A stretch of DNA of 64,000 nucleotides from Alphaproteobacteria bacterium (lineage in GTDB: Bacteria > Pseudomonadota > Alphaproteobacteria > SMXS01): positions 1 through 64,000 of the forward strand of contig WGNW01000020.1 in NCBI GenBank assembly GCA_016124315.1, written 5' to 3'. A program made the position numbers and the translations under genes. The notes under the pieces were generated by a model, which did not search any database, had not been told where the DNA came from, and was given only the letters and a program-made list of their open reading frames with translations. Within the stretch, counting starts at the first letter, position 1. Each line of letters opens with the position of its first letter. Shown one piece after another: positions 9,042-50,787 of the stretch.

Positions 9042-11486
9042 ATGAGAATCGAATGGATTCGGGCTGTCGGCCCGAAGAGGTCGTCTTGGCGCTTGATCAT
9101 GTTGGCCGGCACCGTGTTCGCCGTATCGGCGTCGCAAGCCGGCCTGGCGTTCGCCGATGCTCCTGAAACGATCACGGTCACGGCGCGAAAGCGCGTCGAG
9201 AGCATTCAGAAGGTTCCCGTCGCAATCCAGGCGTTTACCGGGAAGGACGTGGAATCGTCCCGGGCGATCGATCTGACGAAGATCGCCGAGATGGCCACCC
9301 AGGTGATCATCTTTCCCGCGTCGTCGGGATCGGGCGCCAGCTTCAACATCCGCGGCATCGGCTCCTCCTCGGGCGACCCGGGCATCGATTCCAGCGTCAC
9401 GCTCGACATCGACGGCATGATGATCAACCGCGGCGACGCGGTTCGCGCCGGCCAGTTCGATCTCGCGAACGTCCAGATCCTGAAAGGGCCGCAGGCGCTG
9501 TTCTTCGGCAAGAACAGCCCGGCCGGCGTCATATCGCTGCAGAGCGCCGATCCCGGCCCCGAATGGGAATACATCGCCCGCCTGTCCTACGAGGTCGTGG
9601 GGCAGGAAGTGCTGGGCGAAGCCATCGCGTCGGGCCCGATCAACGACAAGGTGGGGATCCGTATCGCCTATCGCGGCAGGACGTCCAACGGCTGGCTGAA
9701 GAACAACTCCCAGCCGATCAGCGATCAGGCGCCCTACATCGCCGGCTATCCTTACGACGCCGAGCCCTACGCATTCCCAGGCGCGACGGACAAGAAGCTG
9801 GGCGCGCAGGACGAGCACATCGCGCGTCTGACCCTCAAGCTCAATCCCACGGACAGGTTCGAGGCCAAGCTGAAGGTCCTCGGCGACCTCTACAAGGACA
9901 ACGGCGCGCAGGTGAACGAGAACATCCACTGCTCGGGCGCCCTGCCGCAGACGACGGGCGTGCTGAGCCAGATCACGCTCGTCGACCCGTATGGCGACTG
10001 CAAGGTCAACGGCGTTACCTCCGAAGGCTCCATGCCCAAGGAGATCTGGCAGCACTATCCCGGCGCGGCCAAGCACGAGGGGGCGCCCTACGAGTTCGTC
10101 GACACGCTGCTGACCACCCTGGCGATGAACTACACCCTCGACAACTTCACCATCTCGTCGCAGACCGGCGTGCACTACTACCGCTACGCCCGGTTCGATA
10201 ATTTCGACGGCACCACCTTCGATCAGTTCCTCGGCTACCAGACGGAGCACCAGACCACGGTCAGCCAGGAGCTCCGCGTTCTCAGCACCTTCGACTTCCC
10301 GTTGAACTTCATGCTGGGTGCGTTCTACGAGAACGCCCGCCGGACCGACGGCAATTCGGGCAAGATCGCCTCGGTGGGTGCGGCCGTCGACGCGAACGGC
10401 GTGATCCACTCCGAGAACTGGTCGGGCCTCGCCCATGTCCGCGAGAAGACCTATTCGATCTTCGGTCAGGCGATCTGGAAGATCGTGCCGGATCTCGAAC
10501 TGGCCGGCGGCGCCCGCTGGACCAAGGTGCAGCAATCCGCCGACCAGCAGAACACCTTCGTCAACCCCTACATGCAGAACTTCTTCCTGTCGCCGACATC
10601 GCCGTTCCTGCTACCGGCGGGGGTCGTGCTGGACAGCACCTCCAACGGCAACAACGTGTCGCCGGAAGTGACGCTGACCTGGACGCCGACGGATGAATTC
10701 ACCCTCTACGGCGCCTACAAGACGGGCTACAAGGCGGGCGGCTTCTCCACCAACACGGTCATCGTCGCCTCGGCCACCGGCCAGTCGCTCACCTTCGGCC
10801 CGGAAACCTCGCGGGGCTTCGAGGTCGGCGCGAAATCGAGCCTCATGGGGGGACGCCTGCGGACCGACCTGACCCTGTACCGCTACGTCTTCAAGAACCT
10901 GCAGGTCAGCGCCTTCGACTCCGCCACCACGTCGTTCCAGATCCGCAACGCCGCGTCCGCAAGGACCGAGGGCGTCGAATTCGACGCCGACTGGCTGGTC
11001 ACCGACGACCTGACCCTGAAGGGCGGGATCGGCTACAACCACGCGCGCTACACCAGCTTCCCCGCCGCGCCGTGCTTCGCCGGGCAGACCACCGGGCAGG
11101 GCTGCGTCGGCGGCGTGCAGGATCTCAAGGGCAAGCCGCTCGTCTTCGCGCCGGACTGGTCGATCAACGCCGGCTTCAACTATGACACGCCGGTCGCGGA
11201 CGGCTGGAAGCTGGGCTTTACCGGCGACGTGGTCTATTCGAGCACCTACCAGACCAGCCTGGCCGACGACGCCCGGGCGGAACAGCCCTCCTACGCCAAG
11301 GTCAATGCCAGCGTTCGGCTCCACTCGGATGACGACAAGTACGAGTTCGCGGTGATCGGCCGCAATCTCACCGACAAGTACATCATCGCCGGGTCCGCGG
11401 ACAAACCGGGCGGCGCGCCCGGCGACATCTTCGCCAACATCATCCGCGGCCGCGAAGTCATCCTGGAGGCCACCTACCACTACTGA
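9042..11486 (+). CDS. TonB-dependent receptor
   Basis: ETITVTARKRVESIQKVPVAIQAFTGKDVE plug, LKGPQALFFGKNSPAGVI, C-terminal beta-strand VILEATYHY. Confidence 0.92.
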   Translation: MRIEWIRAVGPKRSSWRLIMLAGTVFAVSASQAGLAFADAPETITVTARKRVESIQKVPVAIQAFTGKDVESSRAIDLTKIAEMATQVIIFPASSGSGASFNIRGIGSSSGDPGIDSSVTLDIDGMMINRGDAVRAGQFDLANVQILKGPQALFFGKNSPAGVISLQSADPGPEWEYIARLSYEVVGQEVLGEAIASGPINDKVGIRIAYRGRTSNGWLKNNSQPISDQAPYIAGYPYDAEPYAFPGATDKKLGAQDEHIARLTLKLNPTDRFEAKLKVLGDLYKDNGAQVNENIHCSGALPQTTGVLSQITLVDPYGDCKVNGVTSEGSMPKEIWQHYPGAAKHEGAPYEFVDTLLTTLAMNYTLDNFTISSQTGVHYYRYARFDNFDGTTFDQFLGYQTEHQTTVSQELRVLSTFDFPLNFMLGAFYENARRTDGNSGKIASVGAAVDANGVIHSENWSGLAHVREKTYSIFGQAIWKIVPDLELAGGARWTKVQQSADQQNTFVNPYMQNFFLSPTSPFLLPAGVVLDSTSNGNNVSPEVTLTWTPTDEFTLYGAYKTGYKAGGFSTNTVIVASATGQSLTFGPETSRGFEVGAKSSLMGGRLRTDLTLYRYVFKNLQVSAFDSATTSFQIRNAASARTEGVEFDADWLVTDDLTLKGGIGYNHARYTSFPAAPCFAGQTTGQGCVGGVQDLKGKPLVFAPDWSINAGFNYDTPVADGWKLGFTGDVVYSSTYQTSLADDARAEQPSYAKVNASVRLHSDDDKYEFAVIGRNLTDKYIIAGSADKPGGAPGDIFANIIRGREVILEATYHY

Positions 11487-30967: not shown

Positions 30968-31663
30968 TCACCAGGGATGGACGTCGCCCGTCCACTTCAG
31001 CCACTTGCCGTGATCGGCGGGGGTGATGCCGACGATCACCTTGTGCACGTCGGCGGCCGCGTCGGGCGGGTCGAGGTCGGCGACCGGTCCGGCCATCTCG
31101 GTGCGGATCCAGCCCGGATGCATCAGGGTGATGGTGACGCCGTCGTCCTTCATCTCGTTGGCCAGCCCGGTCATCAGCCGGTTCACCGCCGCCTTGGCTG
31201 CGGCGTAGGAGTAGCCGATGACGTGGTCGTAGGCGTGCGAGGCCACCTGGCTGGTCATGGTGACGATCTTGCGGCCCTGGCCCGCCATGACGTTGGGCAG
31301 GAACGCCTGCACCACCCGGAAGGGGCCCATGGCCATCACGTTCATCTCGAACGCCCAGTTGTCGTAGTCCATGTTCTGGAAGGTCTGGGTCTCCAGCCCG
31401 CCCCAGACGCCGGCGTTGTTGATCAGCACGTCGATGGGCACGTCCTTCAGCTCGGCGGCGCAGGCCTTCACGGAAGCGGTGTCCCCGACGTCCATCTTGT
31501 GGACCGTCACCCGTCCTCCCGAGGAATCGGCCACCGCCTTCAGCTTGTCGGCCCGTTCCGGGTTGCGGGTGGTGGCGTAGACCCTGTCGCCGGCGTCGGC
31601 GAAGCACTTCACCAGCTCGTAGCCGAGTCCGCGGGCCGAGCCCGTGATCAGGATGTTGGCCAT
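30968..31663 (-). CDS. SDR family oxidoreductase
   Basis: ITGSARGLGYE, YSYAAAKAAVNRL. Confidence 0.9.
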   Translation of the reverse strand: MANILITGSARGLGYELVKCFADAGDRVYATTRNPERADKLKAVADSSGGRVTVHKMDVGDTASVKACAAELKDVPIDVLINNAGVWGGLETQTFQNMDYDNWAFEMNVMAMGPFRVVQAFLPNVMAGQGRKIVTMTSQVASHAYDHVIGYSYAAAKAAVNRLMTGLANEMKDDGVTITLMHPGWIRTEMAGPVADLDPPDAAADVHKVIVGITPADHGKWLKWTGDVHPW

Positions 31664-31716: not shown

Positions 31717-33099
31717 TCAGTCCCGCACGTATTTCTCCAGGGTGCGGTGCATGTGCCGGATGCGGATTTCCTGGTAGTTGCCCAGGGTGGCGCCGGCCCG
31801 GCCGCTGGTCATGGCGCCTTCCTGGGCCGCCTCCATGTTGCCCGTGTCCTGGTCGTAGACGTGTCCCACGTACGGGTCCATGCCGGGAACGATGGTGTAG
31901 GACTCTTCCGGCTTCAGGCGCACCGGCTCGGCCGGCTCCACCGGGCTGCCGTCCAGCGGCCGCTGCTTCAGGATGATCAGGTCGAACAGCGACTTGTCGT
32001 GCTGCATCCCCAGCGGCCGGAAGCGGTAGACGATGGGGAACGAGATGCCCGAGAAGAACTGCTGGTTGGGGAACACGAAATAGGCGATGGAATCGACGAT
32101 CTCGCTGTCGCTCACCCGCGACAGGTCGGTGCCGCCCCGCTTCGCCACCATGTCCCGGTAGAACTGGGCCATCACCTTGCGGGCGGTGCCGCCCTCGGGC
32201 ACCAGCAGCTTCTCGCCCACGTCCGAGCGGTCGCCGATCAGGAAGCAGTCCAGGATCTCCTGCTCGGTCATCGGCTCCTGCAGGAACGCGCTGGGCGAGC
32301 CGGCGACGTTGATCAGCCGGTTCACGTTGTCGCCGTAGAAATCGTACTGGGTGTTGGCGTCGCCGTTGGTGCGCATCAGCTGGCTGTGCGTCTCCATGAC
32401 GTGATAGGCCTCGAGGAACGCCTCCGACGCGATCTTCCAGTTGCAGTCGAGCTCCTTCTGCACGTGGATCGCCACGTAGCGGTTGGCGAACACGGCGCTG
32501 TCCACGTGTTCGGGCAGGGGCGCCATGTACTCCCGCAGCGGCGGTGCGTCCGGATCCATGTTGATGAACACGAAGCCGCCCCACGTGTCCACCTGGACAG
32601 CGCCCAGCGCGTAGTCCTTCGGGTCCACGTGAGGGAAGTCCCATTCGCAGGGAAACGACGCCAGGTCGCCGTCCAGGTTGAAGGTCCAGCCGTGATAGGG
32701 GCAGCGGATGTGCTCGATGCTGCCGCTGCTGTAGGAAGGGCGCAGCTTGGTGCCGCGGTGGGTGCAGGCGTTGCGGAACGCCCGGATGCCGCCATCCTCC
32801 GCCCGGACGACGAGGATCGAGTAGGGGCCCACGTCGTACACCACGTAGTCGCCGGTCTCGGGGATGTGCTCCTCGCGGCAGGCCCATTGCCAGACCTTCG
32901 GCCAGAGCTGCTCCAGTTCCCGGCGGAAGTAGTCGGGCGACGTGTAGCGGGAGAACGCGATGTCCTTGTCGCCCAGGAAAAAGTACGATTCCGTCGTGAG
33001 ATAGTCGGGAACGGGCCGGCTGTCGTCGTCCAGCAGATCCTGGACGCTGATGCCCGGGCAGCGGGCATCGCCCGGCCTGATGTCGGAATTTCCGCTCAT
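31717..33099 (-). CDS. Rieske non-heme iron oxygenase alpha subunit
   Basis: CTHRGTKLRP...RCPYHGW Rieske ligands; EAYHVMETHSQL mononuclear iron region; the longer ORF start at 33405 is less likely. Confidence 0.93.
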   Translation of the reverse strand: MSGNSDIRPGDARCPGISVQDLLDDDSRPVPDYLTTESYFFLGDKDIAFSRYTSPDYFRRELEQLWPKVWQWACREEHIPETGDYVVYDVGPYSILVVRAEDGGIRAFRNACTHRGTKLRPSYSSGSIEHIRCPYHGWTFNLDGDLASFPCEWDFPHVDPKDYALGAVQVDTWGGFVFINMDPDAPPLREYMAPLPEHVDSAVFANRYVAIHVQKELDCNWKIASEAFLEAYHVMETHSQLMRTNGDANTQYDFYGDNVNRLINVAGSPSAFLQEPMTEQEILDCFLIGDRSDVGEKLLVPEGGTARKVMAQFYRDMVAKRGGTDLSRVSDSEIVDSIAYFVFPNQQFFSGISFPIVYRFRPLGMQHDKSLFDLIILKQRPLDGSPVEPAEPVRLKPEESYTIVPGMDPYVGHVYDQDTGNMEAAQEGAMTSGRAGATLGNYQEIRIRHMHRTLEKYVRD

Positions 33100-33136: not shown

Positions 33137-33155
33137 TTGTTCAACAGTCGATCAA
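33137..33155 (-). promoter_or_regulatory. Predicted operator, site 1 (Rieske promoter)
   Basis: Minus strand TTGATCG-ACTGT-TGAACAA, 12 nt after minus-strand TTGACA at 33173..33168. Confidence 0.65.
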
Positions 33156-33422
33156 TATAAGATAGGTTGTCAATCCCCGTTCTGGTGCCGGGAGCCGATC
33201 CCGGAGCCCCGTCCGAATCATGCTGCCCGTCGCTTTCGGGCGCGGCCCGGAAAGCAATCATAGCAACTTGGTAAAGCTTGTTAATCCTTGTCTGGTTTGC
33301 CAAGTTGAAGGTCTGAACCCGCCATCGGCAACTCGCTCGAAACCGGTATAGAATGAGGTATCGTCCTTCCGGCCGCTGGGCGGGCGAACATAAGAAGGCA
33401 ATCAAGTCGAGGATTTGAGGGA

Positions 33423-34073
33423 ATGCCCATAGTTGTGGACCACGAGGAGCGCCGGCATTACATCGCCCGCGTGGTCGAGAGAGTCATCGCCAAGCAGGGC
33501 ATGGACGCCGTGACCATCCGGAACGTGGCGCGGGAAGCCGGCTTCAGGTCGACGCTGATCTCCCACTACTTCAAGGACAAGAAGGAGATGCTGACCTTCA
33601 CCCTTGATTCCATCCGGACCCGCGCGTCGATCCGCGTCGACCAGGAATTCCTCGAGAACCACGACCTGGCCACCTGCATCGACACATTGCTGGCGACCAA
33701 CGAGGACGGCCTGTCCGACTGGCAGGCCTGGTTCGGATTCTGGGAGAAGGCCACCTTCGATCCTGACCTTGCCGCGGTCCGGCTGGCCGTCGTCGAGGCG
33801 ACCCACAACACCCTGCGGCGCCTGCTGGAGAACGGCATCGCCCGCGGCGAACTGCCGCAAGAGGTAGACGTCGAGTTCCACGCCCGGCGGCTGCAGATCG
33901 TGCTCAACGGCCTGGCTGCCCACGTGGTGATGAAGCCCAGCGCCTGGCCCGCCGAGACCCAGCGGGCGCTGGTCAAGGTTGAGGTCGAATTCATCAAGAA
34001 GATGCCTCGGCCGGAAATCGGCGTCCGGCTTCCCAACTTCCCCTTCGCCCTCAACGGCACCTCCGCATCCTGA
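33423..34073 (+). CDS. TetR/AcrR family regulator (BetI-like)
   Basis: RVIAKQGMDAVTIRNVAREAGFRSTLISHYFKDKKEML helix-turn-helix. Confidence 0.9.
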   Translation: MPIVVDHEERRHYIARVVERVIAKQGMDAVTIRNVAREAGFRSTLISHYFKDKKEMLTFTLDSIRTRASIRVDQEFLENHDLATCIDTLLATNEDGLSDWQAWFGFWEKATFDPDLAAVRLAVVEATHNTLRRLLENGIARGELPQEVDVEFHARRLQIVLNGLAAHVVMKPSAWPAETQRALVKVEVEFIKKMPRPEIGVRLPNFPFALNGTSAS

Positions 34074-34119
34074 CGAGTTCCGCGCGCCGTACAGTTTGCC
34101 ATTGACAGCGCCCTCATCG

Positions 34120-34138
34120 TTATTCAACTGTTGAACAA
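34120..34138 (+). promoter_or_regulatory. Predicted operator, site 2 (SDR promoter)
   Basis: TTATTCA-ACTGT-TGAACAA, 12 nt after TTGACA at 34102..34107. Confidence 0.7.
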
Positions 34139-34210
34139 CAAAAATGCGCCGGCAATGTCCGGCGGTCTTCATGGCCGTGCAGGCCAGTTCACACGGAATG
34201 GGGTAACGAT

Positions 34211-34999
34211 ATGAAGTCTCTCGAGAACAAGGTCGCGATCGTCACCGGTGCGGGGCGCGGCATTGGCCGCGGTATCGCCCTGGCCTACGGTCGGGAAGGG
34301 GCCAAGGTCGTGGTCGCTTCGCGGACCAAGTCGACGGTCGAGGACGTGGCGAAGGAGATCCGCGACGCGGGCGGCGAGGCGATCGGCGTGGCCTGCGACG
34401 TGGGCCAGCGCGACCAGGTGTTCGCCTGTGTGCAGAAGGCCGTGGAGACCTACGGCACGGTCCACATCCTGGTGAACAACGCCCAGGGCTTCGGCACGGA
34501 AGACAGCCCGCAGCCGTCGACCGTGTTCATGGCCTGCGAGGATACCGACGAGAACGAGTGGGAATACACCTTCCGCACCGGTGCGACCGCCTCGCTGTGG
34601 TTCATGAAGGCGGTGTTCCCGCACATGAAGAAGCAGAACTACGGCAAGATCATCAACTTCGCCTCCAGTTCGGGCCAGATGGGGTTCCCGGGCAACACTT
34701 GCTACAACAGCACCAAGGAAGCGATCCGTGCGCTCACCCGTACCGCGGCCAACGAGTGGGGCCAGTACGGCATCACCGTCAACGTCATCAACCCGGCGCT
34801 GGAGACCCGCGCCTTCGACGCGTGGAAGACCGCGCGGCCCGATTTTGTCGAGGCCCTCAAGGAACGGATCCCCATGCGCCGTCTGGGCGATCCCGAAAAG
34901 GATGCGGGTCCGCTCGCCGTGTTCCTGGCGAGCCCCGGCTCCGACTACATGACCGGCGGCACCTTCATGCTGGAAGGCGGCATGCACACTCTGCCCTGA
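34211..34999 (+). CDS. SDR family oxidoreductase
   Basis: VTGAGRGIGRGIALAYGREGA; YNSTKEAIRAL. Confidence 0.92.
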   Translation: MKSLENKVAIVTGAGRGIGRGIALAYGREGAKVVVASRTKSTVEDVAKEIRDAGGEAIGVACDVGQRDQVFACVQKAVETYGTVHILVNNAQGFGTEDSPQPSTVFMACEDTDENEWEYTFRTGATASLWFMKAVFPHMKKQNYGKIINFASSSGQMGFPGNTCYNSTKEAIRALTRTAANEWGQYGITVNVINPALETRAFDAWKTARPDFVEALKERIPMRRLGDPEKDAGPLAVFLASPGSDYMTGGTFMLEGGMHTLP

Positions 35000-35060
35000 C
35001 GGGCGTATCGGGCGGTCGCCGGGCGCGGCCGCCCTATTAATCAAGCGGGGAGAATTCGGG

Positions 35061-35810
35061 ATGATTCTGGAAAACAAGATTGCCATCGTCACCGGCGGCG
35101 GCAGTGGCATCGGCCGGGCGTCCGCCCTCGCCATGGCCCGTGAGGGCGCCACCATCGTCATCGGCAACCGTTCGGCCGACCAGGGCGAGGGAACCTGCCA
35201 CGACATCGAGAAGGCGGGCGGCAAGGCCATCTTCCACCGCACCGACTGCTCGAAGCCGGAGGACTGCGAGGCGCTCGTGGCCCGGGCCGAGAAGGAGTTC
35301 GGTCGGCTCGATCTGGCGTTCAACAACGCCGGCAAGTTCCACGACGTGCTGGCGCCGGTGCACGAGATGCCCATCGAGGAGTTCTCGTGGGGCATCGACC
35401 TCAACCTGAAGGGCGTCTTCTACTGCATGAAGTACGAGCTGGCCGCCATGCTGCGTGCCGGCGGCGGCGCCATCGTCAACAACGCGTCGATCTACGGCAT
35501 CAAGGGCATGCCTACCCTCAACTGGTACACCGCCGCCAAGCACGGCATCGTCGGCCTGACCCAGGCGGCGGCGCTGGAATATGCCGAGCAGAACATCCGC
35601 ATCAATGCGGTGTGTCCGGGCATGACCAAGACTCCGGCCCTCGATTCCGCCACCGGCGGCAATGACGAGGTCTTCGCCGGCGTGGTGCCGATGAAGCGGA
35701 TCAGCCGCGCCGAGGAGATCGCCGAGGGCGTCGCCTGGCTGCTGTCCGACAAGGCCAGCTACATGACCGGCGCCAACCTTCATCTCGATGGCGGCATGAG
35801 CGCCGCCTGA
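35061..35810 (+). CDS. SDR family oxidoreductase
   Basis: VTGGGSGIGRASALAMAREGA; YTAAKHGIVGLTQ. Confidence 0.92.
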   Translation: MILENKIAIVTGGGSGIGRASALAMAREGATIVIGNRSADQGEGTCHDIEKAGGKAIFHRTDCSKPEDCEALVARAEKEFGRLDLAFNNAGKFHDVLAPVHEMPIEEFSWGIDLNLKGVFYCMKYELAAMLRAGGGAIVNNASIYGIKGMPTLNWYTAAKHGIVGLTQAAALEYAEQNIRINAVCPGMTKTPALDSATGGNDEVFAGVVPMKRISRAEEIAEGVAWLLSDKASYMTGANLHLDGGMSAA

Positions 35811-35911
35811 GGGGAACTCGCGCCGGTCTGGCGGGATGCCGGGCCGGCGCCTCCGTTCCCGCGCAAAGCCGTTTGCGAGACGCTTTCAAGAATTGACAGT
35901 CCGCACTGTTT

Positions 35912-35930
35912 TTGTTCAACTGATGAACAA
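35912..35930 (+). promoter_or_regulatory. Predicted operator, site 3 (TonB receptor/Rieske operon promoter)
   Basis: TTGTTCA-ACTGA-TGAACAA, perfect 7-bp arms, 13 nt after TTGACA at 35893..35898. Confidence 0.72.
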
Positions 35931-35956: not shown

Positions 35957-38407
35957 ATGGGGTGGTTTGGAATGGTTGCCCGTGGCGCGCGCGTGCTGTG
36001 CATCGCCACGTTCGCTGCGGCGCTGTCCGCCGCGGTTTCCTACGCACAGGATGTTCCGGCGGCGCCGGGCGCGAGCCCAGCGGCAACGCATACGGGCCTG
36101 GGCGAGGTGCTGGTGACGGCGCGCAAGCAGGTCGAGTCGGCGCAGGACGTGCCGGTCGCCGTGACGGTCATCACCAACAAGGACATCGAGCGCTTCGATC
36201 TGACCTCCATCGAGAAGATCGCCGCCTCCACGCCCCAGCTGGTGGTCGGGCGCGGCTCCAACGGGTCGGGGGCGCAGCTTACCCTGCGCGGCATCGGCTC
36301 GATTCCCACGTCGGTGGGCGTGGAGCAGTCGGTCGCCGTGGTGATCGACGGCGTCTATTACGGCCAGGGCCGCATCATCAACGAGGGCATGATCGACATG
36401 GCCCGCGTCGAGGTGCTGAAGGGGCCGCAATCGCTGTTCTTCGGCAAGAACGCCACCGCCGGCGTGATCTCCTTCACCACCGCCGATCCCACCGACGATC
36501 TGGAGGCGATGGTGCGGGTCGGCTTCGAGGCCAAGGCCCAGGAGCTGTTCACCGAAGCCTTCATCTCGGGGCCGGTCAACGACAAGCTCGGGCTGCGGCT
36601 CGCCGTCCGCGTGTCGGAGATGTTCGGCAGCTACTTCAAGAACCGCGGCTTCGACGTGACCAACTACACGTTCGACGCCGCCACCGGCAATCTCAACTCG
36701 CACTTCGCGCCGGTGCTCGACCGCCGCCTGCCCGGCACCAGCGAGAAGTACGTCCGGGCGACGGCCAAGTTCACGCCCACCGACCGGCTGACCGCCACGG
36801 TGAAGGCCAGCTTCATGCGCACGGTCGACGAGGCGACGGCGTGGAACTACGTGCCGTTCGCCTGCGCCTCGGGCTACACCTCGGTCAATCCGGCCATCCC
36901 GTGCAAGCGCGACTTCAGCGTCTACATCAACTACTTCCCGAACGACATCGCCGGCAACGTGCCCTATGGGCGCGACGACGGCTCGCCGTTCAACGCCTAC
37001 CAGTCCTACGCGGTGACCGGCAACATCGCCTACGACTTCGACAACGTCACGCTGACCTCGGTCAGCAACTACCAGCGCAACCGCAACCGCTGGGGCTGCG
37101 AGTGCCAGAACATCTCGGCTCCGGCGTCCTTCATCTCGGCCACCGAGAACTCGCTGTGGGAGGCCTTCTCCAACGAGACCCGGCTGCAGACCAACTATGA
37201 CGGGCCGGTCAACATGATGATCGGCTTCTACTACCAGGACACCAAGCGGGACCACAGGCAGGCCGGCGCCTTCGGCGGCGTCGAGGACTCCTCCCAGCCG
37301 GCGGACCACCGCTACCTGGCCTATGACAAGAGCTCGGTCACCAACGGCAAGACCCTGTCGGGCTTCGGGCAGGTGAAGTGGAAGATCGTGCCGACGCTGG
37401 AGCTGTCGGGCGGCGTCCGCTACATCCACGAGACCAAGAAGAGCTTCCTCAACATGGACTACGTGAATGTCCTGCTGCAGGGCGTCTTCCCGCAGAACAG
37501 CCCGATCTACGGCGACCAGAAGTTCAACAACTGGTCGCCCGAGGCGTCGCTGACCTGGCTGGTGAACGACAACGTCACCCTCTACACGTCCTACAAGACC
37601 GCCTACAAGTCCGGCGGCTTCTCCAACAGCGCGTTCATCTCTGCCAACACCATTCCGAGCGACGTGGCCTTCAATCCGGAGACCGCCAGCGGCTTCGAGG
37701 CGGGCATCAAGACGCTGCTGTTCGACCGCCAGCTCCGCTTCAACCTGACGGCCTACACCTACAAGTACAAGAACCTGCAGGTCGACTACTACAACTCCAT
37801 CACCTTTCAGTTCATCACCACCAATGCCGGCTCGGCCCGCACCCAGGGCGTGGAACTGGAGGCCGACTATGCGCCCGACGCCGTTCCCGGCCTCACCCTG
37901 CACGGAACGGCCAACTACAACCGGGCGCGGTACATCCAGTACATCGCCCCGTGCTACGGCGGCCAGCCGATCTCCGAGGGCTGCACCACCGTCTTCCAGG
38001 ACGGCCCGGGCCAGAACCTGAGCGGCCAGCCCACCGCCGTGGCGCCCAAGTGGACCGCCTCGCTGGGTGGCAACTACGACATCGACCTGGGGCCGGACTG
38101 GGTGCTCAGCCTGTCGGCCAACGCCCGCTACAGCAGCGCCTATTTCGGCTCCAGCTTCGCCGCGCCGCTGTCGCGCCAGCCCGCCTATGTGAACCTGGAC
38201 GCCGCCATCCGGGTACGCTCCCACGACGACCGGTGGGAGTTCGCGGTCATCGGACGCAACCTCACCAACCACTTCTACTTCGGCGGCACCCAGGACCTGC
38301 CCAATTCGGGCGTGGGCACCGGTACGGCCGGCGGCATCCCGGCCGACCAGCTCGCGCTGGCCGACCTGCCGCGGACGATCCGCTTCCAGGTCACCTGGCG
38401 GTACTAA
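35957..38407 (+). CDS. TonB-dependent receptor
   Basis: EVLVTARKQVESAQDVPVAVTVITNKDIE plug; LKGPQSLFFGKNATAGVI; C-terminal TIRFQVTWRY. Confidence 0.93.
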   Translation: MGWFGMVARGARVLCIATFAAALSAAVSYAQDVPAAPGASPAATHTGLGEVLVTARKQVESAQDVPVAVTVITNKDIERFDLTSIEKIAASTPQLVVGRGSNGSGAQLTLRGIGSIPTSVGVEQSVAVVIDGVYYGQGRIINEGMIDMARVEVLKGPQSLFFGKNATAGVISFTTADPTDDLEAMVRVGFEAKAQELFTEAFISGPVNDKLGLRLAVRVSEMFGSYFKNRGFDVTNYTFDAATGNLNSHFAPVLDRRLPGTSEKYVRATAKFTPTDRLTATVKASFMRTVDEATAWNYVPFACASGYTSVNPAIPCKRDFSVYINYFPNDIAGNVPYGRDDGSPFNAYQSYAVTGNIAYDFDNVTLTSVSNYQRNRNRWGCECQNISAPASFISATENSLWEAFSNETRLQTNYDGPVNMMIGFYYQDTKRDHRQAGAFGGVEDSSQPADHRYLAYDKSSVTNGKTLSGFGQVKWKIVPTLELSGGVRYIHETKKSFLNMDYVNVLLQGVFPQNSPIYGDQKFNNWSPEASLTWLVNDNVTLYTSYKTAYKSGGFSNSAFISANTIPSDVAFNPETASGFEAGIKTLLFDRQLRFNLTAYTYKYKNLQVDYYNSITFQFITTNAGSARTQGVELEADYAPDAVPGLTLHGTANYNRARYIQYIAPCYGGQPISEGCTTVFQDGPGQNLSGQPTAVAPKWTASLGGNYDIDLGPDWVLSLSANARYSSAYFGSSFAAPLSRQPAYVNLDAAIRVRSHDDRWEFAVIGRNLTNHFYFGGTQDLPNSGVGTGTAGGIPADQLALADLPRTIRFQVTWRY

Positions 38408-38454: not shown

Positions 38455-39825
38455 ATGAATCCATCCGATCTGACGCGCGGCAGGGCCAGCCCCTCCGTCC
38501 AGGACCTGATCCACAAGGACGGGCAGCCGGTGCCGGACGTCTTCGAGCTGGAGAGCCCGTGCTACCTGGGCAGCGACGACATTCCCTTCGAGCGCTACAC
38601 CAGCCGGGCGTTCTTCGACCGGGAGATGGAGAGGATGTGGCCGCACGTCTGGCAATGGGCCTGCCGCGAGGAGCACATCCCCGAGCCGGGCGACTACTAC
38701 GTCTACGAGGTGGGCCCCCATTCCGTGCTGATCGTCCGCGGCGACGACATGTCGGTCAACGCCTACGTCAACTCGTGCCTGCACCGCGGCACCAAGTTCG
38801 CCATGGGCGGGATGACCGGCAGCGTCGGCGAACTGCGCTGCCCGTTCCACGGCTGGACGTGGTCCCTCGACGGCGCGCTCAAGCGCATTCCCTACGGCTG
38901 GGACGCCCCGCACGTCCAGGACCGGGACTTCTCGCTGCCGCGGGTGGGCGTCGGCCTGTGGGGCGGCTTCGTCTTCGTCAACCCGGACCCGGAGGCGATG
39001 CCGTTCGAGGACTACATCGCGCCGATCCCCGAGCACTTCGCCAATTTCGACATGGCGGGACGCTTCGTCGAGCTGCACATCGAGAAGGAACTGCACTGCA
39101 ACTGGAAGGCGGCCAAGGAAGCCTTCGTCGAGAACTACCACACCCAGGAGACCCATCCGCAGCTGCTGTTCGGCGCCGATGACGAGGGCACCCAGTACGA
39201 CGTGTTCAACGACAACGTGTCGCGCTTCCTGTGCGCCTTCGGCGTCTCCAGCCAGCTCATCCAGCCCCGGCCGACCGAGCAGGAGATGGTCGACACCATG
39301 CTGGTGGGCAACCGCGCCGTCCTCGGCGACGATCTGGTGGTCGGCGAGGGCGAATCCGCTCGGATGGTCATGGCCCGCGTGCTGCGCAAGGTGCTGGGCG
39401 AGACCTACGGCGTCGACCTCGGCCGCTACACCGACACGGAGATGATCGACGTCTCCCAGTACGGCCTGTTCCCCAACATGATCCTGTTCCCGCAGCTTTC
39501 GCTGCCTATGGTCTATCGCTTCCGGCCGCTGGGTTCGGACCCGGACCGCTCCCTGTTCGAGCTGCTCGTCCTGCGGCCGGTGCCCGACGGCGCCGCGCGG
39601 CCGGCCCCGGCCGAGCCGTTCCGGCTCGCCGAGCCCGACAGCTTCACCACCGTGCCCGGATTCGATCCGACCCTGGGGCACGTGTATGATCAGGACACCG
39701 GCAATCTGCGGGCGCAGCAGGAAGGCTTCCACGCCGCGCGCAAGAAGGGCGAGACCCTGCTGAACTATCAGGAGGTCCGGGTCCGCCTGATGCACCAGAC
39801 GCTGGACAAGTACCTGCGCGACTGA
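38455..39825 (+). CDS. Rieske non-heme iron oxygenase alpha subunit
   Basis: CLHRGTKFAMGG...RCPFHGW; ENYHTQETHPQL; paralogue of 31717..33099. Confidence 0.93.
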   Translation: MNPSDLTRGRASPSVQDLIHKDGQPVPDVFELESPCYLGSDDIPFERYTSRAFFDREMERMWPHVWQWACREEHIPEPGDYYVYEVGPHSVLIVRGDDMSVNAYVNSCLHRGTKFAMGGMTGSVGELRCPFHGWTWSLDGALKRIPYGWDAPHVQDRDFSLPRVGVGLWGGFVFVNPDPEAMPFEDYIAPIPEHFANFDMAGRFVELHIEKELHCNWKAAKEAFVENYHTQETHPQLLFGADDEGTQYDVFNDNVSRFLCAFGVSSQLIQPRPTEQEMVDTMLVGNRAVLGDDLVVGEGESARMVMARVLRKVLGETYGVDLGRYTDTEMIDVSQYGLFPNMILFPQLSLPMVYRFRPLGSDPDRSLFELLVLRPVPDGAARPAPAEPFRLAEPDSFTTVPGFDPTLGHVYDQDTGNLRAQQEGFHAARKKGETLLNYQEVRVRLMHQTLDKYLRD

Positions 39826-40758: not shown

Positions 40759-42405
40759 ATGAGCATGCAGGAATTCGATGTGGTCGTGCTGGGTACCGGC
40801 GCGGCGGGGCTGACGGCTGCGATTCGCGCCCATGACGGCGGCGCCCGGGTCGGGGTGTTCGAGAAGGGCGACAAGCTGGGCGGCACCAGCGCCTGGTCGG
40901 GCGGGATGATCTGGATCCCGAACAACCACCACATGGCCGAGATCGGCGTGTCCGACAGCGCCGAGGACGCCATGACCTACATCATGTCGCTGTCTCACGG
41001 CATGATCGAGGAGGAACTGGCGCAGGCCTTCGTCGACACCGGCCCCGAGATGGTCCGCTGGATGGAGGAGCACACGCCGGTCCAGTTCCGCATCGTCGAG
41101 GGCTTTCCCGACTACCATCCGGAGTTTCCCTGCGGCAAGACCGAGGGCGGGCGGTCCATGGAGTGTCCGCTGTTCTCGTTCCGCGAACTGGGCGCGTGGG
41201 GCGACCGCATCACCCGCAGCTATTTCTTCACCCTGCCGCTCACCATGGCGGAGTCCACCATCGGCGGCGGCGTCTATGGCGGCGTTCCCGCCGAGGAGAT
41301 CGAGCGCCGCCAGGCGGCCGGGGAATGGGGCTGCGGCCACTCGCTGATCGGCCGGCTGCTGAAGGGCTGCCTCGACCGCGGCATCGAGCCGGTCACCGGT
41401 GCGCGGGCCGTCGAGCTGGTGATGGAGGACGGCCGCGTCGCCGGCGTTCGGTTCGAAGGCGCGGACGGGCCGTTCCAGGTGCGCAGCCGCGGCGGCGTCG
41501 TGCTGGCCACCGGCGGCTTCGAGTGGAATCCCGAGATGGTGAAGTCGTTCCTGCGCGGCCCGATGACCAGTCCGGTCTCCATTCCCACCAACACGGGCGA
41601 CGGCCTGAAGATGTCCATGAAGGCGGGCGCGTCGCTGGGCAACATGCGCGAGGCCTGGTGGATGCCGGCGGTCGAGATCCCCGGCGACCGGGGCGACGGC
41701 CGGCCGTTCCAGTACATCTTCCAGGGCGAGAGGGCGCGGCCCGGCGCCATCATGGTCAACCGCAAGGGCAGGCGGTTCACCAACGAGGCGGCCAACTACA
41801 ACGCCTTCGGCGCCGCTTTCCACGTGCAGGACGTGACCCACTTCGAATACGTCAACCTGCCGTGCTGGTCGATCTGCGACCAGGCCTGCATCGACACCTA
41901 CGGTTTCATCCGCACCACGCCGGGCGAGCCGGTGCTGGACTTCGTCACCCGCGCCGACAGCCTGGCCGAGCTGGCCGGCAAGCTGGGCATTCCGGCCGAC
42001 GCGCTGGAGGAGACCGTCGCCCGCTGGAACGCCAGCGTCGAGGCGGGCGGGGATCCCGACTTCGGCCGCGGCGACAGCGCCCAGGACAACTGGTGGGGCG
42101 ACGCGACCAAGCGCGGGCTGAAGGAGGCCACGCTGGGCAAGCTCACCAAGCCGCCGTTCTACGCCGTGGAGGTGGCCAGCGGCTCGCTCGGCACCAAGGG
42201 CGGCCCGAAGACCGACACCCAGGCGCGGGTGCTCGACCTGGACGGCGCGCCGATCCCCGGCCTCTACGCCGCCGGCAACGTCATGGCCTCGGCCATGGGC
42301 ATGACCTATGGCGGTGCCGGCGGCACGCTCGGCCCGGGCATGGTGTTCGGCTATCTCGCCGGGCGTCATGCCGCCGAGCGCACGGCAACCCTCGTCAATC
42401 GATAG
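40759..42405 (+). CDS. FAD-dependent oxidoreductase (3-ketosteroid-delta1-dehydrogenase/fumarate reductase-like)
   Basis: FDVVVLGTGAAGLTAAIRAHDGGARVGVFEKGDKLGGTSAWSGGMIWIP; YGGAGGTLGPGMVFGYLAGRHAA. Confidence 0.9.
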   Translation: MSMQEFDVVVLGTGAAGLTAAIRAHDGGARVGVFEKGDKLGGTSAWSGGMIWIPNNHHMAEIGVSDSAEDAMTYIMSLSHGMIEEELAQAFVDTGPEMVRWMEEHTPVQFRIVEGFPDYHPEFPCGKTEGGRSMECPLFSFRELGAWGDRITRSYFFTLPLTMAESTIGGGVYGGVPAEEIERRQAAGEWGCGHSLIGRLLKGCLDRGIEPVTGARAVELVMEDGRVAGVRFEGADGPFQVRSRGGVVLATGGFEWNPEMVKSFLRGPMTSPVSIPTNTGDGLKMSMKAGASLGNMREAWWMPAVEIPGDRGDGRPFQYIFQGERARPGAIMVNRKGRRFTNEAANYNAFGAAFHVQDVTHFEYVNLPCWSICDQACIDTYGFIRTTPGEPVLDFVTRADSLAELAGKLGIPADALEETVARWNASVEAGGDPDFGRGDSAQDNWWGDATKRGLKEATLGKLTKPPFYAVEVASGSLGTKGGPKTDTQARVLDLDGAPIPGLYAAGNVMASAMGMTYGGAGGTLGPGMVFGYLAGRHAAERTATLVNR

Positions 42406-42433
42406 CCGTCGGCCACGGATCGGGGAGGAAACG

Positions 42434-43324
42434 GTGCAGCGCTGGACGATCGGAGACGTCACCATCACCCAGGTGGTGGAAACCACCTTCCAGGGGCTGG
42501 AGGGCTTCCTGCCCGACGCCACGCCCGAGGCGGTGCTGCCGCTCGATTGGCTGCGGCCCCATTTCATCACCGAGGAGGGCATCCTCCGGTTCAGCATCCA
42601 CGCCTTCGTGATCGACACCGGCCGGCGCCGGATCATCGTCGACACCTGCGTCGGCAACCACAAGCCGCGGGAATTCTTCCCCGACTGGCACATGCTCCAG
42701 ACCGACTTCCTGCGCAGGCTCGAGGACGCCGGCTATCCGCGCGAAAGCATCGACACCGCGCTGTGCACCCATCTCCACCTGGATCACGTGGGCTGGAACA
42801 CCATGCTGGTGGACGGCGAGTGGGTGCCGACGTTCCCGAACGCCCGCTATCTCATCGAGCGCACGGAACTGGCCTACACGGACGGCGGATCGGACGACGC
42901 CGAGATGGAGCCGTGGCTGCGCGACATGAACGCGACCGTCATCGCCGATTCCATCCGTCCGGTGATGGACGCCGGGCTGGTCGACCGGGTCGGGTCCGAC
43001 CACCGCATCTGCGACGAGGTCGAGCTGGTGCCGACGCCGGGGCACACCATCGGTCACGTGAGCGTCAGGGTCGCCTCGCGGGGCGCGTCGGCGCTGATCA
43101 CCGGCGACTTCATCCACCATCCCTGCCAGCTCGCTCATCCCGAGTGGTCGGTGACCACCGACTACGATCCGGCCCAGTCCGTGGTCACCCGCCGGGCGCG
43201 GTTCTCAGAGGTGGCCGACACGCCGACGCTGGTGCTGGGCACCCATTGGCCGGTGCCGAGCGCGGGCTACGTGGCGCGCAGCGGAGACGCCTGGCGTCTC
43301 GACGTCGAGGGAGGGAAGGAATGA
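42434..43324 (+). CDS. Metallo-beta-lactamase fold hydrolase
   Basis: THLHLDHVGWN HxHxDH motif; TPGHTIGHVSV; GTG start. Confidence 0.9.
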   Translation: MQRWTIGDVTITQVVETTFQGLEGFLPDATPEAVLPLDWLRPHFITEEGILRFSIHAFVIDTGRRRIIVDTCVGNHKPREFFPDWHMLQTDFLRRLEDAGYPRESIDTALCTHLHLDHVGWNTMLVDGEWVPTFPNARYLIERTELAYTDGGSDDAEMEPWLRDMNATVIADSIRPVMDAGLVDRVGSDHRICDEVELVPTPGHTIGHVSVRVASRGASALITGDFIHHPCQLAHPEWSVTTDYDPAQSVVTRRARFSEVADTPTLVLGTHWPVPSAGYVARSGDAWRLDVEGGKE

Positions 43325-43665
43325 TCATCGCCACCGGCCTCATCCGTGTCGCGCCGGCGCAGGTCCATGCGGTCCTCGCCGACCTGCGCGCCGGCATCGC
43401 CTACTCCCTCCAGGAGGACGGCTGCCGGTTCTACACCTTCGCGCTGGAGGACGAGGCGGCCGGCAGCATCCTCACCCTGCAGATCTGGCGCGACGAGGAG
43501 GCGCTGGCGGCGCATCTGTGCAACCCGCACATCCGGAGCCTGCTGGCCAAGTGGGACGGCCAGCTGGACGTCCACACCAAAATCTACGACGCCGACCACG
43601 AGCGCCCCGTCGGCGACTGGCGCAACCCCGAGCTCGGTCCGATGATCGCGGCCAGCCGCAGGTAG
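43321..43665 (+). CDS. Antibiotic biosynthesis monooxygenase (ABM)-like domain protein
   Basis: ATGA overlap with the MBL gene; DGCRFYTFALEDEAAGSILTLQIWRDEEALAAH. Confidence 0.8.
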   Translation: MIIATGLIRVAPAQVHAVLADLRAGIAYSLQEDGCRFYTFALEDEAAGSILTLQIWRDEEALAAHLCNPHIRSLLAKWDGQLDVHTKIYDADHERPVGDWRNPELGPMIAASRR

Positions 43666-43746
43666 CGGTTCCCTCGCCGGTGGACTGGCCGGCGACGGCG
43701 GCTATGATGAGCGCCGAATGACCATCGCTCTAGGGGAGCACAAGCA

Positions 43747-46378: not shown

Positions 46379-47278
46379 ATGAGCCTGTGCAAGGACCGGG
46401 TTGCGATCGTCACCGGCGCCGGCCGCGGCGTCGGCCGCGCCTATGCCCTGATGCTGGCGCGCCACGGCGCAAAGGTACTGGTCAACGACCTGGGCTCCGC
46501 GTCCGACGGCATGGGCGCCGACCAGGCCCCGGCGCAGCAGGTGGCCGACGAGATCCGCGCCATGGGCGGCGAGGCCGTCGCCGACACCACCGACGTGGCC
46601 GACTGGGAGGGCGCCGAGCGGATGATCCGCGCCGCCGTCGACGCGTTCGGGCGGCTCGACGTGCTGATCAACAACGCCGGGATCCTGCGCGACCGGATGC
46701 TGGTCAACATGACCGAAGACGAGTGGGACACCATCATCCGGGTGCACCTCAAGGGCACCTTCGCGCCCACCCACCATGCGGCCAACTACTGGCGGCTGCA
46801 GCACAAGACCGGCAATCCGGTCGACGCGCGGGTGATCAACACCACCTCCCATTCCGCCCTGTTCGCCAATATCGGCCAGGCCAACTACGCCGCCGCCAAG
46901 GCCGGCATCGCCACCTTCTCGCTGGTGGCGGCCCGCGAGCTGCAGCGCTACGGCGTCACCGTCAACGCGCTGGCGCCCCGCGCCAACACAAGGCTGACCG
47001 AGGGGCTGAGGGAATGGACGCCGGAGGAGGAGGAACGGCGCCGGCCGGAGTGGATCGCCGCGCTGGTCACCTGGCTGGCCAGCCCGGAATCCCGGAACGT
47101 CAGCGGCCGGGTGTTCGAGGCCTGGGGCGGCGGCTACACGGTGGCCGAGAGCTGGCAGCACGGGCCGATCGCGCCCGCCTCCAAGGATCCCGCCGAACTG
47201 GGCCCGCGGATCTCCGGGATCGTCAAGCACGCCCGGTCGAACGCGGGCATCGACCGGGATGTCTGGCTCGATCCCTGA
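46379..47278 (+). CDS. SDR family oxidoreductase (MFE-2/HSD17B4-like)
   Basis: VTGAGRGVGRAYALMLARHGAKVLVNDLG; YAAAKAGIATFS. Confidence 0.92.
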   Translation: MSLCKDRVAIVTGAGRGVGRAYALMLARHGAKVLVNDLGSASDGMGADQAPAQQVADEIRAMGGEAVADTTDVADWEGAERMIRAAVDAFGRLDVLINNAGILRDRMLVNMTEDEWDTIIRVHLKGTFAPTHHAANYWRLQHKTGNPVDARVINTTSHSALFANIGQANYAAAKAGIATFSLVAARELQRYGVTVNALAPRANTRLTEGLREWTPEEEERRRPEWIAALVTWLASPESRNVSGRVFEAWGGGYTVAESWQHGPIAPASKDPAELGPRISGIVKHARSNAGIDRDVWLDP

Positions 47279-47294
47279 GCCCGAGGTCTTTCAC

Positions 47295-48857
47295 GTGAGC
47301 ATCCGGCCCATGTCCCATCCCGCCCAGATCGCGGCGCGCCATCCGGACCGGCCGGCGCTGATCATGGCCGAAGGCGGCGAGGTGCTGACCTACGGGATGC
47401 TGGCGGAGCGCGCCAACCGGGCGGCGCACCTGTTCCGGGAGCTGGGGCTGCGGCGCGGCGACACCGTCGCCTTCCTGCTGGAGAACCACATCCGCTATCC
47501 CGAGCTGTGCTGGGCCGCCAAGGAGGCCGGGCTCTACTACGTATGCGTCAGCACCCAGCTCACCTTGGACGACCTCGTCTACCTAGTGCGCAACAGCGGT
47601 GCCCGCCTGCTGGTGTCGAGCGCGGCGCTGGCCGAACGCGCCAATGCGCTGGCGGCGCGGCTCGAGGGCACGCTGTCGCTGCTGATGGTCGACGGCGCCC
47701 GGCCGCCCTTCGCCTCCTACGAGGAAGCCCTGGTCCGCCAGCCGTCGACGCCGCTGCCGGACCGGACGCGCGGCGCCTCCATGCTCTATTCGTCCGGCAC
47801 CACGGGCCGGCCGAAGGGCGTCAAGGTGCCGCTGACGGACGCGCCGCCGGAGGAGCCGCCGCGCCGGCAGGCGCTGCTGGAGCGCGATTTCGGCTTCCGG
47901 GAGGGCATGGTCTTCGTCAATCCCGGCCCGTTCTACCACGCGGCGCCGCTGCGCATGATGATGGCGGTCCAGCGTCTCGGCGGCACGGCCATTGGGTTCC
48001 GCGCCTTCGATCCGCTGGCCACGCTCGCCGCCATCGAACGTTATCGGGCGACCCACGGCTTCTTCGTCCCGACCATGTTCATCCGCATGCTCCGCCTCGC
48101 CGAGGCGGAGCGGCGCCGCTACGACCTGTCGAGCATGGAGGCTACCGTCCATGGCGGCGCACCCTGCGCCCCCAGCGTCAAGCAGGCGATGATCGACTGG
48201 TGGGGACCGGTGATCTACGAGGTCTATGGCGGCACCGAGGGTCTGGGCTACGCCACCATCTCGCCGGAGGAATGGCTGGCCCATCCAGGCTCGGTCGGCC
48301 GTCCCGCCGCCGGCTCGCGGCTGCGCATCCTTGACGAGGACGGCACCGTCCTCGGCCCGGGCCGGACCGGCCGCGTATTCTTCAACAACGGCTACCGCTT
48401 CGCCTATCACGGCGACAGCGGCGGCGACGCGCCGACCCATGACGCCGAGGGGTTCGCCACCTTCGGCGACGTGGGCTACGTGGATGAGGACGGCTATCTC
48501 TACCTCACCGACCGCTACGCCAACATGATTGTCAGCGGCGGCGTGAACATCTATCCGCAGGAGGCGGAGAACGTGCTGATCGGTCATCCCATGGTCGGCG
48601 ACGTCGCCGTCATCGGCGTGCCCGACGAGGAGTTCGGCGAGCAAGTGAAGGCCGTCGTGGTGCCGCGCACTCCGCCCGCCGATCCGGACGCGCTCGCCGC
48701 CGAGCTGGTCGCCTATTGCCGGGCGCGTCTCAGCCCCATCAAGTGTCCACGGTCCGTCGACTTCGCCGCCGAGCTGCCGCGCAGCGACGCCGGCAAGCTG
48801 CTCAAGCGGGTGCTCAAGGAGCGCTATTGGGCGGGCCACGCTTCGTTCATTCTGTGA
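47295..48857 (+). CDS. AMP-dependent acyl-CoA synthetase
   Basis: SMLYSSGTTGRPKGVKVPL; YEVYGGTEGLGYATI; SDAGKLLKRVLKERYW; start may be 47310. Confidence 0.92.
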   Translation: MSIRPMSHPAQIAARHPDRPALIMAEGGEVLTYGMLAERANRAAHLFRELGLRRGDTVAFLLENHIRYPELCWAAKEAGLYYVCVSTQLTLDDLVYLVRNSGARLLVSSAALAERANALAARLEGTLSLLMVDGARPPFASYEEALVRQPSTPLPDRTRGASMLYSSGTTGRPKGVKVPLTDAPPEEPPRRQALLERDFGFREGMVFVNPGPFYHAAPLRMMMAVQRLGGTAIGFRAFDPLATLAAIERYRATHGFFVPTMFIRMLRLAEAERRRYDLSSMEATVHGGAPCAPSVKQAMIDWWGPVIYEVYGGTEGLGYATISPEEWLAHPGSVGRPAAGSRLRILDEDGTVLGPGRTGRVFFNNGYRFAYHGDSGGDAPTHDAEGFATFGDVGYVDEDGYLYLTDRYANMIVSGGVNIYPQEAENVLIGHPMVGDVAVIGVPDEEFGEQVKAVVVPRTPPADPDALAAELVAYCRARLSPIKCPRSVDFAAELPRSDAGKLLKRVLKERYWAGHASFIL

Positions 48858-49344: not shown

Positions 49345-50225
49345 CCATCCGCTCCTTCATGTTCGTCCCCGGCGACAGCGAGAAGAAGCTGGGCAAGGCA
49401 GACGCGCTGGGCGCCGACGCGCTGATCCTCGACCTGGAGGACGCGGTTGCGCCCGCCCGCAAGCCGGCGGCGCGGGAGATGGTTCCGGCTTTCCTCGCCG
49501 CCCGGCCTCCGGCGGCGCGGCAGGCGCAGCTTTGGGTCCGCATCAACCCGCTGGCGACGCCCGAGGCGCTGGCCGACCTGGCGGCGGTGGTGCCCGCCGC
49601 GCCCGACGGGATCATGATCCCCAAGGCCGACGGCCCGGCGGACGTGGCGCGCCTGAGCCATTACCTGGACGCGCTCGAGGTCCAGGCCGGCCTGGAGCGC
49701 GGCGGCATCCGCATCCTGCCCGTCGCCACGGAGACGGCGAAGGCGCCGTTCGCCCTGGGCGACTATGCCGCCGCCCGGCTGGAGCGGCTCTACGGGCTGA
49801 CCTGGGGCGCCGAGGACCTGAGCTCGGCCATCGGCGCCAGCGGCAACCTGGGGCCCGACGGAGAGTGGACGCTCACCTACCGGCTGGTGCGCTCGCTCAC
49901 CCTGCTGGGCGCCCATGCCGCCGGCGTGGAGGCGGTCGAGACGCTCTATGTGGACTTCGGCGATCCGGACGGGCTGCTGGCGTCGTCGCGGGCGGCGCGG
50001 GCGGAGGGCTTCAGCGGCCGCATCGCCATCCATCCCTCCCAGGTCGCGGCGATCAACGAGGCGTTCACGCCGTCGGTGGCGGAAGTCGACGGCGCGCGCC
50101 GAGTCATCGCCGCCTTCGAGGCCGAGCCCGACGCCGGCACCGTCCAGCTCGACGGCCGGATGCTCGACATCCCCCATCTCAACCAGGCGCGCCGCACGCT
50201 CGCCACCCATGAGAAATACCGCTGA
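49341..50225 (+). CDS. CoA ester lyase (HpcH/HpaI/CitE family)
   Basis: RSFMFVPGDSEKKLGKADALGADALILDLEDAVAPARKPAAR; IAIHPSQVAAINEAFTPS. Confidence 0.93.
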   Translation: MTIRSFMFVPGDSEKKLGKADALGADALILDLEDAVAPARKPAAREMVPAFLAARPPAARQAQLWVRINPLATPEALADLAAVVPAAPDGIMIPKADGPADVARLSHYLDALEVQAGLERGGIRILPVATETAKAPFALGDYAAARLERLYGLTWGAEDLSSAIGASGNLGPDGEWTLTYRLVRSLTLLGAHAAGVEAVETLYVDFGDPDGLLASSRAARAEGFSGRIAIHPSQVAAINEAFTPSVAEVDGARRVIAAFEAEPDAGTVQLDGRMLDIPHLNQARRTLATHEKYR

Positions 50226-50259
50226 TGAAGCCCTTGCCCGCCGCCATGAAAGGCCCGCC

Positions 50260-50787
50260 ATGCCCAGGGCGGTGAAGGACAACTCGCCGGCGCCGGACGA
50301 CGCGAGGCCCAGCGCCAAACCGTTCCGCTTCGGTTTCCTCGTGCACGACGTGTCGCGCCTGCGCCGCACCCTGTTCGACCAGGAAATGAAACCGCTCGAC
50401 GTGACCCGCTCCCAGTGGTCGGTGCTGGCCATGCTGTCGCGCGGCGGCAACAACGGCGTCACCCAGGTGGACCTCGCCCGACTGCTCGACGTGGGCAAGG
50501 TCACCGTCGGCGGACTGGTGGACCGGCTGGAGTCCAGCGGCCACGTGGAGCGGCGGCCGGACCCGGCCGACCGGCGGGCCTGGCGGGTGTTCATCACCGG
50601 CAAGGGCTACGACACGATCGCGCTCATGCAGGGCGTCGGCAACGCACTCAACGCCAGCATTCTCGCCGGCGTCTCCGAGGCCGACCTGCGCGTCACCGAG
50701 GAAACCCTGGCGCGGGTGAAGCAGAACATCCTGGGCCTGGTGCGGTCGTCGGGCGCCGCCGAGCCGGACGGAGAGGAGAACGTCTGA
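50260..50787 (+). CDS. MarR family transcriptional regulator
   Basis: TRSQWSVLAMLSRGGNNGVTQVDLARLLDVGKVTVGGLVDRLESSGHVERRPDPADRRAWRVFIT. Confidence 0.92.
   Translation: MPRAVKDNSPAPDDARPSAKPFRFGFLVHDVSRLRRTLFDQEMKPLDVTRSQWSVLAMLSRGGNNGVTQVDLARLLDVGKVTVGGLVDRLESSGHVERRPDPADRRAWRVFITGKGYDTIALMQGVGNALNASILAGVSEADLRVTEETLARVKQNILGLVRSSGAAEPDGEENV

Follow-up and report, generated by a model that had tools for sequence, protein, structure and literature searches.

A 19-bp palindrome found at three promoters of a catabolic gene cluster is very likely the operator of a TetR-family repressor encoded in the same cluster (33423..34073, plus strand; Pfam TetR_N plus TetR_C_6); a dimer of this protein would block all three promoters, and its release by a ligand would de-repress them. 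In the window, the 64,000-nt stretch of DNA analyzed here, the palindrome reads as two nine-base arms around a single base, TTGTTCAAC-T-GTTGAACAA, with the consensus TTGTTCAACTGTTGAACAA. O1 (TTGATCGACTGTTGAACAA, 33137..33155, minus strand) lies in the promoter of the first Rieske oxygenase gene (Rieske1) and ends 37 nt before its start codon, O2 (TTATTCAACTGTTGAACAA, 34120..34138, plus strand) lies in the promoter of a pair of SDR genes and ends 72 nt before the SDR start codon, and O3 (TTGTTCAACTGATGAACAA, 35912..35930, plus strand) lies in the promoter of a TonB-dependent receptor gene and ends 26 nt before its start codon. O1, with the left arm TTGATCGAC, is the weakest of the three. Upstream of each operator, on the same strand, is a −35-like TTGACA (33168..33173, 34102..34107, and 35893..35898), and the one belonging to O1 is invariant in five genomes. 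An earlier note on this DNA had given these three sequences with their coordinates and strands and had placed them 12–13 nt from an exact TTGACA; the sequence agrees on every point, with measured gaps of 12, 12, and 13 nt. The consensus palindrome of that note also stands, but its ACTGT spacer does not, since with 9-1-9 arms most of those bases fall within the arms. Judged by their distance to TTGACA, the operators would lie over the −10 and start region, a placement that the earlier note had also proposed and that is backed by the comparative evidence below. A canonical −10 was found after the TTGACA box at none of the three promoters.

The genes behind these promoters encode oxidative enzymes and an outer-membrane receptor. 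Transcript 1 would comprise Rieske1, an oxygenase alpha subunit with Pfam Rieske and ring-hydroxylating alpha catalytic domains (31717..33099, minus strand), followed by an SDR (30968..31663, minus strand) that also stands beside Rieske1 in congeners, at 74–79% identity. Transcript 2 would carry SDR34211 (34211..34999; Pfam SDR) and a second SDR (35061..35810), both on the plus strand. Transcript 3, likewise on the plus strand, would begin with the TonB-dependent receptor (35957..38407) and continue with a second Rieske oxygenase alpha subunit (Rieske2, 38455..39825), SDR39925 (39925..40734), and a FAD-dependent dehydrogenase of the 3-ketosteroid-delta1 / 4-oxocyclohexanecarboxylate dehydrogenase type (40759..42405; FAD_binding_2). 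Behind it in the same run are an ORF for a lactonase-like hydrolase of the metallo-beta-lactamase (MBL) fold (42308..43324; the true start is probably further in) and an ABM-domain protein with the approximate bounds 43321..43665, inside ORF 42547-43665.

The palindrome is rare. When three mismatches to the 19-mer were allowed, O1, O2, and O3 were the only matches in the window, with none in 100 dinucleotide shuffles, and they were again the only matches in the whole 3.95-Mb genome to which the window belongs (G000), which was scanned by mismatch patterns. High frequency across the genome, named in the earlier note as an outcome that would speak against its proposal, was therefore not what the scan returned. 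With the central five bases left free, up to three mismatches gave 35 places vs. 14 for a reversed-pattern control, and matches with zero, one, or two mismatches occurred only at O1, O2, and O3; a broad IUPAC pattern added two weaker matches elsewhere in G000. Since this genome is 84% complete, further sites may have been missed. A class-wide pattern search of 385 genomes gave mostly single scattered matches in other genomes, which we treated as background.

Among congeners, the palindrome is inherited together with the TetR gene. Orthologues of the TetR protein with 79–84% identity are present in G002, G004, G005, and G006, and in each of these genomes the palindrome occurs at the orthologous locus and is confined to it. 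G003 and G007 have no TetR orthologue, and the palindrome was found nowhere in either genome. Presence of the motif at the orthologous promoters of congeners also answers the second objection raised in the earlier note, namely that it might be absent there. The SDR-promoter site (O2 type) is kept in all four TetR-bearing congeners; the TonB-promoter site (O3 type) is present in G002, G004, and G005, while the G006 contig is 4 kb long and ends early. All four also have a Rieske1-promoter site (O1 type), whose left arm is degenerate, with five mismatches. The sites are better conserved than the DNA around them: invariant columns numbered 14/19 for O1 vs. 64/225 other ungapped intergenic columns (Fisher p = 1e-4, five genomes), 17/19 vs. 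16/87 for O2 (p = 7e-9, five genomes), and 18/19 vs. 37/97 for O3 (p = 3e-6, four genomes). All six TTGACA columns were invariant at each of the three promoters. G002 and G005 lack SDR34211 and keep the operator in place before the other SDR gene, which indicates that the site is not tied simply to one gene.

A further operator has been lost from the window. Rieske2 and SDR39925 are transcribed divergently in G002, G004, and G005, with a conserved site, TTGTGCAATTGTGCAATAA, between them (L032:16069-16087, L034:19669-19687, and L036:17629-17647). In the window, Rieske2 has been reoriented and stands directly behind the TonB receptor, and the site between Rieske2 and SDR39925 is gone. Read from gene order and sequence, this loss would fit a passage of control to the TonB promoter.

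The association extends to distant homologues of the repressor. When a position matrix built from own-genus sites alone was applied to distant loci, intergenic sites were found beside every TetR homologue of 45–52% identity, in six Sphingomonadaceae genomes including one that was held out, and in all six the operator accompanies an SDR34211 orthologue of 78–84% identity. Novosphingobium marinum (L046) and Croceicoccus ponticola (L049), whose TetR proteins are 44–48% identical to the 33423-34073 product, share Rieske1 (73%), Rieske2 (64%), four SDRs, MBL, and ABM with the window; in L045, L047, and L048, the SDR34211 orthologue is directly or closely upstream of TetR. The top matrix match in 5/5 distant loci was intergenic and roughly 20–40 nt before the SDR34211 orthologue, with a best-of-shuffle fraction of 0 to 0.01. 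L046 and L049 have second and third sites, one between the divergent Rieske2 and SDR39925 genes and one downstream of the TetR gene, ahead of a glyoxalase-like gene; these are weaker when taken alone (best-of-shuffle fraction 0.005 to 0.145). In L046, the three sites are at 3648, 5721, and 10627, and the TetR orthologue is at 10001-10603. The TonB receptor orthologue of N. marinum is likewise preceded by a site (L103:5029). The exact TTATACAACnnnTGCACAA form, with zero or one mismatch, occurred only at the TetR locus in the distant-homologue genomes. In G488, whose TetR homologue (52%) had not been used before and served as the held-out test, the matrix gave a single outlier of 16.1 bits vs. 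−0.9 for the next match; it lies between TetR and an SDR of 84% identity, with TTGACC 13 nt upstream. At the locus of a 32% identical TetR homologue in an Actinomycetales MAG (L050) the motif was not found, and the operator thus does not reach that far.

Genomes that keep the enzymes and lack the regulator serve as the converse comparison. G001 and G009, of the same family and other genera, retain the Rieske1-SDR30968 pair at 69–75% identity. No homologue of this TetR was found in G001 at 1e-15, and G009 has only a 34% relative; neither has a promoter-quality site upstream of Rieske1. These pairs without TetR and without motif indicate that the palindrome goes with the TetR gene and not with the enzymes. 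The scattered two-mismatch matches to the broad pattern in G001, G008, and G009 are about as frequent as matches to the reversed control.

The protein encoded at 33423-34073 has the expected features of a repressor of this family. Its TetR_N helix-turn-helix (PF00440) scored 38.5 bits vs. a cut-off of 24; at the C-terminus TetR_C_6 passes and TetR_C_11 falls just below its cut-off. The predicted fold has nine helices (pLDDT 86.6), and the nearest PDB structures are TetR regulators. The gene has a promoter-like match of its own (33325-33354). The earlier note had stated that its upstream region lacks the motif, which holds in part: the 323-bp divergent intergenic region does contain O1, yet O1 is 267 nt from the TetR start and 37 nt from that of Rieske1. 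The lack of a full operator close to the gene's own start, together with at least four further TetR_C_6-like paralogues in the same genome (G000), could suggest that the palindrome belongs to another regulator, be it one of these paralogues, the MarR protein encoded at 49915-50787, or a global factor, and that the TetR gene is a bystander. We consider this unlikely. The congener stretches searched do not contain the MarR gene, relatives of the paralogues are present in two genomes without sites (G003 and G007), and the motif had no match in the stretches fetched around paralogous TetR loci. Moreover, three sites are too few for a global factor, and the site-bearing loci compared have the TetR gene as their shared regulator. 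Three congeners (L032, L034, and L031) conserve a TTGTTCA half-site, TTGTTCAnTTATGA, nearer the TetR start, which may give weak autoregulation there; the window has no such half-site near the TetR start.

The paralogues themselves yielded some side observations. In G006 and G007 (L022:1452-1471 and L018:2070-2089), a paralogous TetR gene is preceded at ~30 nt by a palindrome of another sequence, GGATGTTGTACAACATCC, which on sequence grounds is probably the operator of that paralogue. Upstream of a TetR paralogue at G000:C28, at a distance of 31 nt, there is also a weak match, TAAGACGAATGTTGTACAA. The reading frame of another TetR paralogue (L013, G005:C19:22310-22888) has an internal TAG stop.

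Assignment of the palindrome to the 33423-34073 protein leads us to the following scheme. A TetR dimer would take one operator at each promoter, where the −10 and the transcription start should lie, and would thereby shut RNA polymerase out of the Rieske1-SDR pair, the SDR pair, and the TonB receptor run. The pathway substrate or an early intermediate would then bind the C-terminal domain and release TetR, so that uptake and oxidation would be de-repressed together. Occlusion by a dimer over the −10 and start is the simplest reading of the site positions. The absence of a canonical −10 at all three promoters despite an exact TTGACA might instead mean that TetR binds and activates, or that it modulates weak promoters needing another activator. 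This is somewhat less probable even than a different regulator, given that the sites lie downstream of the −35, at the −10 and start, which is the classical position of a repressor, and that EdcR, a sphingomonad TetR protein whose palindrome covers the −10, has been proven to repress (PMC8700777). A conserved piece of promoter DNA or a dispersed repeat without a dedicated regulator is highly improbable and largely refuted already by the co-occurrence with TetR: TTGACA and a small number of adjacent bases (AACAA, AAA) are common to the sites, but the flanks otherwise differ, the surrounding intergenic DNA has diverged, and orthologous promoters in TetR-less genomes have no palindrome.

The limits of the regulon are drawn more narrowly here than before. 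The earlier note had one TetR protein controlling three transcripts, the third of which extended to a P450; a local shared regulator is supported by the comparative evidence, but inclusion of the P450 is not. The P450 gene (at 43747; Pfam) and all genes to its right were not found in the congener stretches read, and a promoter-like TGGACT-16-TATGAT at 43681-43708 lies just before it; the P450 gene may thus have been inserted later and be expressed on its own. A CoA intermediate had also been suggested as one possible ligand. We found no support for this, because the acyl-CoA ligase gene (47259-48857) is not in the congener loci and is therefore outside the conserved unit. The FAD enzyme suggests a substrate of the cyclic ketone or steroid-like type, but the gene for this enzyme is present at the locus in G000 and G002 only; of the three congeners read across the entire locus, two lack it. 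A paper on lignin dimers and the Rieske/SDR cluster of pNL2 in Novosphingobium aromaticivorans (L083), which has no strong site, were followed as leads to the pathway and rejected. G000 and its relatives show a strong expansion of the Rieske oxygenase alpha family: at E <= 1e-100, each genome has 8–19 homologues, for genome sizes of 2.2–4.1 Mb.

Several characterized systems resemble the one proposed here without being identical to it. EdcR, from the estradiol edc cluster of Caenibius tardaugens, is likewise encoded by a sphingomonad TetR gene within a catabolic cluster, with the same palindrome in two or more operon promoters, where it overlaps the −10; EdcR is released by the substrate and the second intermediate and has a weaker site at its own promoter (PMC8700777). 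However, the published EdcR operator, TnnCnnTACnAnTnGTAnnGnnA, does not match O1–O3 when read against them, and the C-terminal domain of EdcR is described as TetR_C_11, vs. TetR_C_6 here (PMC8700777). KstR2, of cholesterol catabolism in mycobacteria, also has three intergenic palindrome copies near its gene, which were found by comparison of orthologous promoters (PMC3068626). A KstR2 site far from one of two divergent starts represses in one direction only, a precedent for O1, which is at a similar distance, 267 nt, from the TetR start (PMC3068626). O1–O3 do not fit the 14-bp actinobacterial KstR2 motif, AnCAAGnnCTTGnT (PMC3068626); the KstR2 ligand is a CoA thioester, for which the locus here gives no support, and the KstR NCBIfam model scored 20 bits vs. 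a cut-off of 280. The best NCBIfam match was BetI (TIGR03384), a choline-responsive TetR protein with the same C-terminal Pfam domain, TetR_C_6, but its score of 54.6 bits lies below the equivalog cut-off of 201.3. No bet genes were seen in the cluster, and the literature search for BetI-like operators turned up nothing of use. CymR/CuO, a promoter-occluding repressor and operator of a cumate degradation pathway, released by an aromatic acid, is a working analogue by description only (PMC10304978). PheR of Sphingobium sp. SHPJ-2, a local repressor released by substrate, couples uptake with a Rieske oxygenase; we rejected it as a close precedent, as it belongs to the IclR family and has a different operator (PMC13273656). 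A literature search for TTGTTCAAC found no matching bacterial operator among the papers listed.

Comparison of the two groups of sites hints at how the operator may have changed. The recognition helix reads FRSTLISHYF in the own genus, YSSTILSHYF in the distant group, and FSSTIVSHYF in G488. Base 5 of the half-site is T in 24/28 own-genus half-sites at the three window-type promoters vs. 2/22 in the distant group, a comparison of related sequences that is suggestive only; the own-genus Rieske2 site breaks the rule. Tentatively, Arg42 of TetR with T5 half-sites (TTGTTCAAC) and Ser42 with A/G5 half-sites (TTATACAAC / TTGTGCAAC) could form a specificity-switch pair. It is possible, if doubtful, that the regulon passed between two alphaproteobacterial groups with re-tuning of its operators, and that relocation of Rieske2 under the TonB promoter cost the regulon one site.

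Taken together, a local TetR regulon is well supported; it is ordinary in kind and its control principle is well known, but its details are new. A DNA-binding specificity can be proposed from sequence for an uncharacterised TetR subfamily, and the operators define a small one-pathway regulon of Rieske oxygenases, SDRs, a lactonase-like enzyme, and an outer-membrane receptor. An operator reporter combined with TetR is a ready route to the pathway substrate, and the regulon is experimentally tractable because the cultured Novosphingobium marinum DSM 29043 has it.
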